NCBI RefSeq assembly: GCF_003270085.1
Contig: NZ_QFDQ01000058.1
Coordinates: 1 to 64,000 of the forward strand
Direction: 5' to 3'
Length of the DNA stretch: 64,000 bases
DNA from: Streptomyces triticisoli
GTDB taxonomy: Bacteria > Actinomycetota > Actinomycetes > Streptomycetales > Streptomycetaceae
Below, piece by piece: positions 4,856-7,204 of this stretch; the stretch's first letter is position 1; every line of letters begins with the position of its first letter. The position numbers and the translations under genes were made by a program. Under the pieces are notes generated by a model. The model saw only the letters and a program-made list of their open reading frames with translations, did no database searches and had not been told where the DNA came from.

Positions 4856-5135
4856 TCAGTCGGCCGGAAGCGTGGACGTCGGCCGAGCCCGCGGCCCGGT
4901 GACCGACGAGGGCGGCGGCTCGTCGCCCGGCGCCGTGGACGCCGACCGCGCCCGCCGCCTCCCGCGGGTGCGCCGTGGTTCCTGGTCCGGGAGCCAGCCG
5001 AAGATCAGGCAGCTGCCGGTCGCTCCGAGGAGCAGGCCGAGGAAGAAGCCGCCGAGGTTGGAGGTGACCCAGGTGCCCAGGGAGAGCAGGATGCCGGTGC
5101 AGGAGTAGAAGAGGCGCTGGGCCGGGTTGAAGAGG
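4856..5135 (-). pseudogene. C-terminal half of a DUF6114 membrane protein, cut off by the TnpB element
   Basis: Reading leftward from about 5135, the frame gives LFNPAQRLFYSC, then SLGTWVTSNLGGFFLGLLLG and FGWLPDQEPRR, the second half of a DUF6114 small integral membrane protein. The last two membrane helices and the basic/Pro tail are present. The N-terminal helices lie on the far side of the element, at 6976-7151, in the same orientation. Upstream of 5135 the frame continues into element sequence without similarity. Members of this family are uncharacterised actinobacterial membrane proteins. Confidence 0.78.
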
Positions 5136-5335
5136 GGTGGGAGCTGCTGGGGCTTGGCTGAGCGGGAGTGTGTTCTGGCGTGCACGAGTGGGCACTGGCG
5201 GCCGCATCCGGAGCTGCATGCTGTCGTTGTGGCCGGGGCATGAGGGTTCCCCTGTCGCATGTGTGACCTTTGCGGTTGGTGCTCGTTGAGTGGGGTGAGC
5301 GGGTCTTCCGGGGCGGACTGATCGGGGGTGTAGGG

Positions 5336-6970
5336 GTGGGCGGACTGCTGCGGGAGCTTGCGGCGCCGTTCGTCGTTCCCGGTCCCTCCGGGGTGGCGAT
5401 CCGTACCCGACTCAAGCACCTTCCGCCCGCGGACGAGGAGGTGCTGCGGCTGGTGGGGGCGCATCTGGGCGCGCTGGCCTCCCGCGACCTCAAAGCGCGC
5501 TGCCGGGACGGCCTGGAGCACGACGCGGAGGCGTGGGCGGTGCGCAAGCGGGAGCTGACGCCGCAGTCGTCCGCCCGCTGGGCCGGGGCGATCACCAAGG
5601 CCACGCATGACCAGTGGGCGCTGGTACGACGTGGGCAGCTCGCCCACATCCAGTCCCTGGAAGCGGGGGTGCGGACCCTCCGCCACCGGCTGTCCCTGCC
5701 CGTCGGCGAGAAGGGCTCGAAGAAGGCGCCGGGCGGCTACCGCAGCAAGCGGGAGTGGCACGCCAAGACCCGTCGTCTGCACGTGCTGGAGGAGCGGCTG
5801 GAGCGGGCGCGCGCCGAGTGGCAGGCCGGGACGGTGCGCGTGGTGCGGGGTGGCAAACGCCTGGCCCGCACCCGGCACCACCTGCCCACAGCCCGGTTCA
5901 CCGAGAACCAGTGGCGCCGGCGCTGGCAGGCCGCGCGGTGGTTCCTGCAGGCCGACGGTGAGAGTGGGAAGCGGTATGGGAACGAGACCATCCGCATCAG
6001 CCCGGACGGTGAGGTGAGCCTCCGGCTGCCCACCCCGCTCAAGGATCTGGCCAACGCCCCGCACGGCCGGTACGTCCTCGCCTCCCGGGTGCGGTTCGCG
6101 CACCGCGGGCAGGACTGGGCCGACCGCGTGGAGGCCGACCGGGCGGTGGCCTACCGCATCCGCTACGACCCGGTCCGGAGCCGCTGGTACCTGACCGCCT
6201 CCTGGCAGCTGCCCGTCTCCCCGGCCATCCCGCTGGCCGCTGCCCTGGCCGACGGGGCGATCGGCGTGGACACCAACGCCGACCACCTCGCCGCCTGGCG
6301 CCTGGACATCCACGGCAACCCGATGGGGAACCCGCGCCGATTCTTCTACGACCTGTCCGGACCGGCCGACCACCGCGACGCCCAGGTCCGCCACGCCCTG
6401 ACCCGGCTGCTGCACTGGACCAAGGCCTGCGGCGTGAAGGCCATCGCCGTCGAGGACCTGGACTTCACGGCGGAGAAGACCCGCGAGAAGCACGGCAGGC
6501 GCAAACGGTTCCGGCAGCTGATTGCCGGCCTGCCCACCGGCAGGCTCCGTGCCCGCCTGACCTCGATGGCCGAGCAGACGGGTATTGCGGTCATCGCCGT
6601 CGACCCGGCCTACACCTCCACCTGGGGCGCCCAGCACTGGCGAGGGCCCCTCACCAGCAAGAAGCGCAAGACCACGCGCCACGATGCTGCCGCCGTGGCG
6701 ATCGGAAGGCGCGCCCAAGGGCATCCGGTCCGGCGTCGGACGGCACCGCCCCGTGCACACCGGAGTGATGTGCATGGGCATCGGACCGTCCAGGCCGGCC
6801 GGCATGCCCTGGGGCGTGAGGAAACCCGCCCCCGCATTCCCGGACCGCGGACACGATCCGTGCCACCGGACCGCGGAGTGAACGCGGGAGACCAGAACGC
6901 CCAACACCGTTCGGGGCGTTCGGCTGAGCACGAGTCCTGGCAACAGGACCCGCTACCGCTCAGTCTCTAG
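5336..6970 (+). CDS. tnpB: TnpB-related RNA-guided nuclease homologue, long Streptomyces type
   Basis: Protein of about 544 residues of the TnpB-related family, whose studied members are RNA-guided DNA nucleases and the ancestors of Cas12. A Lys/Arg-rich N-terminal half is followed by a split RuvC fold: GVDTNADHLA (first Asp near residue 312), IAVEDLDF (Glu near 373) and TRHDAAAVAIG (last Asp near 450), all retained. The usual CxxC zinc ribbon between motifs II and III is absent; YTSTWGAQHW stands in its place. Start choice is uncertain: the frame is open from TTG 5270, and GTG 5336 is taken because recognisable similarity begins just after it. The last 90 or so codons overlap the structured right end. 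Confidence 0.82.
   Translation: MGGLLRELAAPFVVPGPSGVAIRTRLKHLPPADEEVLRLVGAHLGALASRDLKARCRDGLEHDAEAWAVRKRELTPQSSARWAGAITKATHDQWALVRRGQLAHIQSLEAGVRTLRHRLSLPVGEKGSKKAPGGYRSKREWHAKTRRLHVLEERLERARAEWQAGTVRVVRGGKRLARTRHHLPTARFTENQWRRRWQAARWFLQADGESGKRYGNETIRISPDGEVSLRLPTPLKDLANAPHGRYVLASRVRFAHRGQDWADRVEADRAVAYRIRYDPVRSRWYLTASWQLPVSPAIPLAAALADGAIGVDTNADHLAAWRLDIHGNPMGNPRRFFYDLSGPADHRDAQVRHALTRLLHWTKACGVKAIAVEDLDFTAEKTREKHGRRKRFRQLIAGLPTGRLRARLTSMAEQTGIAVIAVDPAYTSTWGAQHWRGPLTSKKRKTTRHDAAAVAIGRRAQGHPVRRRTAPPRAHRSDVHGHRTVQAGRHALGREETRPRIPGPRTRSVPPDRGVNAGDQNAQHRSGRSAEHESWQQDPLPLSL
6895..6963 (+). ncRNA. Candidate omegaRNA (reRNA) scaffold at the right end of the TnpB element
   Basis: Two stem-loops lie just inside the right end. 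An 8-bp stem GAACGCCC (6895-6902)/GGGCGTTC (6914-6921) is followed by an outer stem CTGAGC (6924-6929)/GCTCAG (6958-6963). The outer stem encloses GTCCTG-GCAA-CAGGAC (6934-6949), a perfect 6-bp hairpin with a GNRA tetraloop. In known TnpB systems the guide RNA overlaps the 3' end of tnpB and its guide is the flank just outside the element, here starting near 6976. RNA production is not shown. Confidence 0.55.
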
Positions 6971-6975
6971 GAACG

Positions 6976-7151
6976 GTCAGCAGCCCGCACAGCACCATCA
7001 GCGCGGGCAGCAGGTAGTCGGCCAGCCCCTGCATCCCGATGTGCAGGACGACCTTCAGCGAGGCCTTCTCGGTCAGCAGGATCTCCGCCCCGCCCAGTGT
7101 GAGCAGCAACCCGTCCCAGAAAGGCCGACCGGACCGCCAAGTACGCCCCGG
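6976..7151 (-). pseudogene. N-terminal half of the split DUF6114 gene
   Basis: Leftward from about 7145 the frame reads RTWRSGRPFWDGLLLTLG, then AEILLTEKASLKVVLHIG and LLPALMVLCGLLT, and stops at the element border. This is the first half of a DUF6114 protein with its first two membrane helices. It is in the order and orientation expected if it was once joined to 4856-5135. The true start is lost: an in-frame TGA lies at 7152-7154, so the 5' end is also damaged and the gene is dead on both sides of the insertion. Confidence 0.75.
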
Positions 7152-7204
7152 TCACTGACGCCGGAGCGCCCGTCTACGTCAACTGACCCGACGTGTCACG
7201 CGGT

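Follow-up and report, generated by a model that had tools for sequence, protein, structure and literature searches.

How did a tnpB gene with no transposase gene beside it come to lie within a membrane-protein gene, and does it still belong to a working element? The question is raised by positions 4856–7151 of the window, the 64,000-nucleotide stretch of Streptomyces triticisoli DNA analysed here (contig NZ_QFDQ01000058.1, positions 1 to 64,000; draft assembly of 6.84 Mb in 297 contigs), where a single DUF6114 membrane-protein gene on the minus strand is split by a 1,838-bp tnpB-only element at 5137–6974. The best explanation, to which we give a probability of about 0.85, is that the insert is a non-autonomous IS607-type element that would be moved in trans by a serine transposase, and that it carries a TnpB, a guide RNA predicted to use the GGT of the right junction, and a promoter-like 5' module.

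Interrupted gene and target site

The following features define the insertion.

4856..5136, minus strand: C-terminal part of the DUF6114 gene
6977..7139 (end approximate), minus strand: N-terminal part of the DUF6114 gene, start codon missing
5137..6974, plus strand: whole tnpB-only, putatively non-autonomous IS607-type element, 1,838 bp, placed by left-end profile, right-end motif and empty sites
5137..5160, plus strand: left end, GTGGGAGCTGCTGG..., with the motif of tnpA-bearing copies (locus L068: GGGGTTGAGAACTGCTGG)
5135..5136, no strand: left copy of the GG exchange dinucleotide, ambiguous within the G-run 5134–5137
6975..6976, no strand: right copy of the GG exchange dinucleotide, from the empty-site alignment and the right-end motif

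The C-terminal part matched Pfam PF19609 (E = 1e-12, profile positions 59–105 of 106), and joining of position 5136 to position 6977 (GAAGAGGG followed by TCAGCAG) gave one open frame, the position of the join being ambiguous over two G's. The joined DUF6114 sequence was searched in 61 genomes, and 19 of the alignable loci found were fetched. Over the 48 columns around the junction, 16 of these 19 relatives were ungapped and three had balanced 3-base gaps, and the uninterrupted relatives ruled out two separate DUF6114 genes. The initial annotation had taken the two parts as halves of one gene around a tnpB-only insert; its coordinates were off by one base at most, its rebuilt empty site does read through, and the element boundaries coincide with the junction. 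The empty site in the relatives was GAAGAGGATCAG in six of the 19 and a variant of it in the remainder, and by this reconstruction the window lineage must have had GAAGAGGGTCAG before the insertion. The rebuilt site contains three G's, the left junction four, and the right junction two, indicating that the exchange took place inside a GG.

The element ends read GGGGT...AACTGCTG / AGGAACGGT. A profile built from related left ends put the left end, which directly follows the G-run, at 5137; in the 32 copies placed by this profile, the three bases preceding the conserved T were G in 32, 31, and 32 copies, respectively. The right end is AGGAAC followed by GGT, with the boundary at 6974/6975. The right-end motif AGG(A/G)AC-GG, in which GG was part of the search pattern, was found in 111 of 139 rows, and the next base, which was not part of the pattern, was T in all 111 right ends, with mixed bases beyond it. 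Inspection of the sequence revealed no terminal inverted repeat, no repeat search having been run.

Ten other insertion sites were rebuilt, and empty counterparts were found in relatives (37 comparisons). At nine of the ten, the segment preceding the right flank, which in the filled copy is a G-run of 3–5 and in a relative at times holds one non-G base, had the same length in empty and filled sites. The equal length means that only G's were lost or gained, which supports IS607-type targeting, and at each of the ten sites one relative or more had a T after the G-run. The empty-site alignment of the DUF6114 gene and the other sites both show exchange at GG with no duplication of the target; exchange would occur at a GG within a G-run followed by T.

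At one solo copy (L079, contig C78 of genome G024), a tandem repeat of approximately 130 bp follows the right end directly; it starts with AGGAAC, the last six bases of the element, and includes the start of the target gene.

Relatives carrying a serine transposase

The TnpB of the window was searched for in 121 Streptomyces genomes and in other actinomycetes, the best 80 of 160 loci being kept in the wider search. TnpBs of this type were present in 34 of the 121 Streptomyces genomes, often in several copies, and, among the best 80 of the 160 loci, also in Nocardiopsis, Actinomadura, Micromonospora, and Nonomuraea. In L068 and L069 a gene for a serine recombinase (Pfam Resolvase, E = 1.7e-19 and 1.2e-19, respectively) lies just upstream of a window-family TnpB gene and within the same ends. 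Serine-type tnpA elements with matching ends, for which the initial annotation had suggested looking, were therefore found in these two loci and in others, and together with the lengths kept at nine sites they bear out its suggestion of IS607-type GG targeting. The tnpA-bearing rows numbered 27, of which 17 had the left-end motif and 23 the right end; their tnpA was 83–88% identical to that of L068 in 25 rows and 40% identical in L093. This type of tnpA occurred in 15 of the 121 genomes, 12 of which were among the 34 TnpB-bearing genomes, and was not seen in the other 22 of the 34.

The row of the window copy (L070) gave no tnpA match, in agreement with the initial annotation. Because a tnpA was found neither in the window copy nor elsewhere in its genome, we classified the insert as what appears to be a non-autonomous derivative and not a full IS607 element. 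Its mobilisation would depend on a serine transposase acting in trans from another locus, as suggested by the ends shared with tnpA-bearing elements and by the empty sites. One of the 22 genomes that showed no such tnpA, G024, holds eight end-to-end solo copies with mutual identities of 82–92%. In Streptomyces sp. Ag109_O5-1, two solo copies (L181 and L191) occupy separate places with different flanks and share 99.9% identity over 1,828 bp, and the same genome has a tnpA-bearing copy (L153); this arrangement is consistent with movement in trans without proving it. Such near-identity suggests that solo copies have moved recently and still move.

Among 21 genomes, the left region of the element was found again only in the genome of the window. 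On five contigs of that genome (C92, C237, C242, C272, and C275) copies or pieces of the element lie at or near contig ends, which leaves the copy number there uncertain.

TnpB protein

5336..6970, plus strand: tnpB, 544 residues; GTG start placed by comparison with L068; D312, E373, and D450; no zinc-finger cysteines

The RuvC triad is intact, with D312 and E373 present in 34 of 34 rows and D450 in 32 of 34. Zinc-finger cysteines were not found: only C56 and C365 were common to at least half of the 34 rows. The AlphaFold model had a pLDDT (predicted local distance difference test) of 70.9 and a pTM (predicted template modelling score) of 0.56, with residues 466–544 under 50. In a Foldseek search with this model, the best PDB matches were AsCas12f1 (7wju_A, E = 3.8e-9; template modelling score by query, 0.38), ISFba1 TnpB (8iaz_A, E = 2.4e-4), and Fanzor2 (6.5e-4), and the predicted structure thus has a TnpB/Cas12f-like fold.

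The ratio of nonsynonymous to synonymous substitution rates (dN/dS) was computed for 14 TnpB pairs, 12 between solo copies and two including tnpA-bearing copies. It was 0.14–0.34 in nine of the 12 solo pairs and 0.56–0.66 in the other three, which involve broken-frame copies (L100, L010, L103, and L106). For the TnpB of the window copy against two relatives, it was 0.27–0.28. TldRs are nuclease-dead TnpB-like regulators that have lost the catalytic residues; the intact triad ruled out a protein of this kind. The element keeps a divergent TnpB, likely an RNA-guided DNA-cutting enzyme. By analogy with known TnpBs, this enzyme would cut an uninterrupted DUF6114 allele and so favour retention of the element.

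Predicted guide RNA and the invariant T

6895..6921 (arms 6895–6902 and 6914–6921), plus strand: conserved hairpin, presumed guide-RNA scaffold, overlapping the end of tnpB; covariation
6906..6912, plus strand: hairpin loop, ACCGTTC, predicted to pair in a pseudoknot
6971..6977, plus strand: GAACGGT, pairing partner of that loop in the predicted pseudoknot; the terminal GGT comes from core and target
6978..6997, plus strand: predicted 20-nucleotide guide (host DUF6114 sequence), placed from the presumed scaffold boundary

In the hairpin, RNAalifold found two-sided changes with pairing kept at six of ten predicted pairs, in up to 25 of 59 sequences; a second hairpin that can be made out by eye, with GTCCTG/CAGGAC nested in CTGAGC/GCTCAG, was not among its results. 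The loop of the conserved hairpin, ACCGTTC, and the right junction, GAACGGT, are reverse complements. All seven pairs of this predicted pseudoknot, with G-U counted, could form in 93 of 111 copies, and in none of the 111 at twelve slid positions. The 3' guide-RNA scaffold would thus overlap the end of tnpB and include the GGT of the right junction, and, judging from the sequence and from the ISXfa1 study (PMC10711439), the bases after GGT, from 6978 on, would serve as the guide. Because GGT completes the predicted 7-bp pseudoknot, a need of the guide RNA for this base would explain why the T is invariant, and the pseudoknot would be a structural reason for elements occurring only where GGT follows the junction. 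A RAGATH-18 RNA was rejected as an identification, since no Rfam family matched 4900–7200 at E values up to 1.

Promoter-like module in place of tnpA

5238..5291, plus strand: promoter-like module, comprising a degenerate GAAC-N4-GTTC (5238–5249, GCATGAGGGTTC, two of eight arm letters differing), TCGCATGTGTGACC (5255–5268), and TCGTTGAGT to 5291

In solo copies, a block beginning approximately 108–145 bp before the first conserved tnpB codon contains GAAC-N4-GTTC followed by TCGAATGNGTGACCTT and TCGTTG. A profile of this module was built from 26 solo rows, one of which was the window copy, itself recovered with E = 2.5e-11. At E < 1e-4 the module was present in 76 of 103 tnpA-less rows and in none of the 27 tnpA-bearing rows. 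The 27 tnpA-less rows without it include five with fewer than 75 upstream bases, which are unable to show it (L046, L145, L172, L177, and L219), and eight from a distant clade (L061–L063 and L088–L092). Before counting, L174, L186, L201, and L193 (same places as other rows) and L013 (contig end) were dropped, and eight rows without a tnpB start were left unclassed; no pair of classed rows shares both flank and interior. Five of the 76 modules lacked the anchor TGACC, and in the 71 aligned copies the palindrome occupies a single fixed place, its arms being exact in 40 and with one mismatch in 18.

Of 150 genomes, 26 contained the module-core pattern and none contained its backward control, and a window-type TnpB lay behind 24 of 30 fetched places. 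Two of these places (L269 and L274) precede other TnpBs, one canonical with zinc-finger cysteines and one of a third kind. Among 18 close matches (at least 61% identity) of the L269 family, two of which are fragments, seven tnpA-less copies have a readable start; the module was found in L289 (E = 2.8e-12) and L298 (3.5e-11) and was not found in five others (L292, L296, L346, L347, and L349) nor in any of nine tnpA-bearing copies, and one fragment scored only weakly (E = 0.047). For the L274 family, the module was present in 12 of 25 rows at a laxer level than that used for the window family (E = 1.5e-6 to 9e-3), three tnpA-bearing rows and ten others lacking it; in this set L331 mirrors L320, and L333 and L337 are one broken gene. 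None of 19 distant TnpBs (L300–L318) had it. No row of the three TnpB families examined combined the module with tnpA. In most tnpA-less relatives of the window family, therefore, a conserved promoter-like module stands in the place of tnpA, and it may drive tnpB; a candidate promoter is formed by GTGACC and a TTGGGT-like hexamer 17 bases further along.

Genome G153 contains 14 exact module-core matches, several of which lie equally far from opposite ends of the chromosome. Two remnants with the module and no tnpB were seen (L263 in G033 and L288 in G121), of which L263 also retains part of the RNA hairpin.

What the module does is a separate question. It may be an ordinary promoter, inherited from a few solo ancestors or passed on by recombination and having no special regulation, and we consider the chances of this to be close to even. 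All module copies can be aligned; a 101-row TnpB tree requires seven changes between the module and tnpA states, at least three of which are forced by strongly supported branches (in a 52-row tree, the tnpA state alone needs eight changes, at least six forced); and five of the seven tnpA-less L269-family copies do without the module. Less easily reconciled with an ordinary promoter are its occurrence at the equivalent position in two other TnpB families, where no tnpA-bearing member has it (zero of nine and zero of three), and palindrome arms far more conserved than the spacer among the 71 aligned copies.

The module also resembles tandem LexA boxes. Scored with a matrix of 17 published S. venezuelae SOS boxes, the best sites of the 76 modules had a median of 10.0, against 2.6 in equal stretches of tnpB; 10.0 is reached by 2.8e-4 of window positions and compares with 10.4 for the validated lexA-1 box, which itself contributes to the matrix. 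The two boxes of the window copy are degenerate, and TCGCATGTGTGACC scores 5.4. GAAC-N4-GTTC with at most one mismatch occurs at 15 sites in the window against 15.8 expected; the palindrome alone is therefore weak evidence, and what counts is its constant position within the module. SOS control is offered as a hypothesis only. In its full form, IS607-type elements of at least three actinomycete TnpB families would have replaced tnpA, in parallel or through exchange, with one common promoter cassette under SOS control, giving transposase-less elements that have a damage-induced RNA-guided nuclease and spread on borrowed serine transposases; we regard this as unlikely. Seven further L269-family matches (three tnpA-bearing and three tnpA-less, all module-free, and one fragment) made it less likely and an ordinary promoter more likely. 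A search of titles and abstracts, with most subscription papers outside its reach, found no paper on such a module or a LexA link in IS607 or tnpB-only elements, and we do not claim its absence from print.

Weighing of the IS607-type reading

Several observations weigh against a mobile IS607-type element with a GGT-using guide RNA. At the target, sequence does not distinguish GG from GT as the exact exchange position, only one of 15 relatives has T after the run at the L045 site, and the L076 site, the tenth in the comparison of empty and filled lengths, was ambiguous. In the RNA, the pseudoknot loops and right ends were selected by motifs favouring the expected letters; a two-sided change was found in one copy (L184); 15 of the 111 copies have a C-A mismatch and three further copies are short of a pair; and the recently moved L181 and L191, whose right end is AGAGACGGT where the window copy has AGGAACGGT, form six of the seven pairs. 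Given motif-picked rows and a single two-sided change, the pseudoknot is supported mainly by complementarity at the right place and by the ISXfa1 precedent. The protein scored below the cut-offs of the TnpB models (NF040570, 48.8 of 100 bits; TIGR01766, 30.4 of 32; PF07282, 20.7 of 26.3). No tnpA was found in the genome of the window, a draft in 297 contigs, either with the tnpA of this type or with a second one approximately 52% identical to it, the empty result of the second search being uninformative alone; mobility of the element there today is thus only presumed.

The insert might instead be a dead relic whose 5' module and RNA are leftovers and whose tnpB is drifting. The many broken or partial copies in the window genome, the degenerate box letters of its module, and the lack of a detected tnpA would fit such a relic, which we nevertheless hold to be improbable in view of the open 544-residue frame with an intact triad, the dN/dS of 0.27–0.28, and the intact letters of hairpin and pseudoknot. 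A tnpB-only derivative of the IS605/IS1341 type, mobilised by a tyrosine (Y1) transposase in keeping with the label that databases usually give, accords with the best NCBIfam names (guided_TnpB and IS200/IS605 accessory protein) and with four Y1_Tnp matches in the window genome (C295, C204, C288, and C249, with TnpB-like hits adjoining those on C295 and C288), and is very improbable because the same-ended relatives carry a serine recombinase and the targets are G-runs, which led us to reject a tyrosine origin. Purifying selection on solo TnpBs could also reflect domestication, tnpB serving the cell (for example in defence) and movement having ended, an explanation that the exact ends at different sites across genomes and the near-identical L181 and L191 at two sites of one genome make hardly credible.

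Deletion beside the insertion

7133..7139, no strand: junction of a deletion of approximately 2 kb, with 5–8 bp (mostly 7) matching both sides
7133..7186, plus strand: what is left of the C-terminal end of an adjacent gene (...AKYAPVTDAGAPVYVN stop)

The initial annotation rightly noted that the N-terminal part of the DUF6114 gene lacks a start. Bases 7133–7188 match sequence located approximately 1.9–2.1 kb from DUF6114 in six relatives, and the start was lost through a deletion of that size, an event separate from the insertion of the element. The deletion took the DUF6114 start, the gene preceding it, and most of a further gene; the preceding gene is one that we take to be for a DUF6230-like protein. 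The junction, with its 5–8 bp of microhomology, lies approximately 156 bp from the right end of the element. The statement that decay continued stands for the host gene; for the element it was misleading, as the TnpB triad, guide-RNA hairpin, and ends are intact, nine of the 12 solo pairs have low dN/dS, and solo copies appear still to move.

Comparison with known systems

As a transposase-less IS607-type element the insertion is ordinary, though well resolved, and it adds base-by-base comparisons of empty and filled sites for such elements in Streptomyces; the part that would surprise a specialist is the shared module in the place of tnpA. The same promoter-like module before TnpBs of three families makes the survival and control of a nuclease gene parted from its transposase a testable matter.

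The IS607 family (IS607, IS1535, and ISC1926) is described as exchanging at GG, with (G)GG as the preferred target and with neither terminal inverted repeats nor target duplication (PMC6188088). The window element resembles it in GG exchange, in its G-run target, and in having same-ended relatives with a serine recombinase, whose N-terminal helix-turn-helix was seen by inspection. It differs in that the window copy has no tnpA and in that the T after GG is invariant in our rows, whereas for IS607 no additional target preference is reported (PMC6188088). As in the IS1341 group, tnpB stands alone between left and right ends; unlike that group, the window element has the ends of serine-recombinase elements and a shared 5' module (PMC9956272).

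In ISXfa1 TnpB with its reRNA, the fixed right-flanking base belongs to the RNA scaffold, and a pseudoknot with a stem-loop is required (PMC10711439). Flanking bases in a predicted scaffold and a predicted pseudoknot are likewise found here, but three bases (GGT) of the window element would enter the pseudoknot, its TnpB is divergent and without zinc-finger cysteines, and its predicted RNA and the coding region overlap. For ISFba1 and the other RAGATH-18 IS607 TnpBs, target-adjacent AGGAG and GAGGG and an RNA independent of the coding sequence are reported (PMC11061315); a G-rich motif beside the target is shared with them, whereas the window element has no Rfam match. With the Streptomyces SOS boxes bound by LexA (PMC9380542), the likeness lies in TCGAATGNGTGACC, resembling tCGAAC-N4-GNNCGa, and in the upstream GAAC-N4-GTTC; unlike those boxes, the module scores as a weak box, and the outer bases of its upstream box mismatch.

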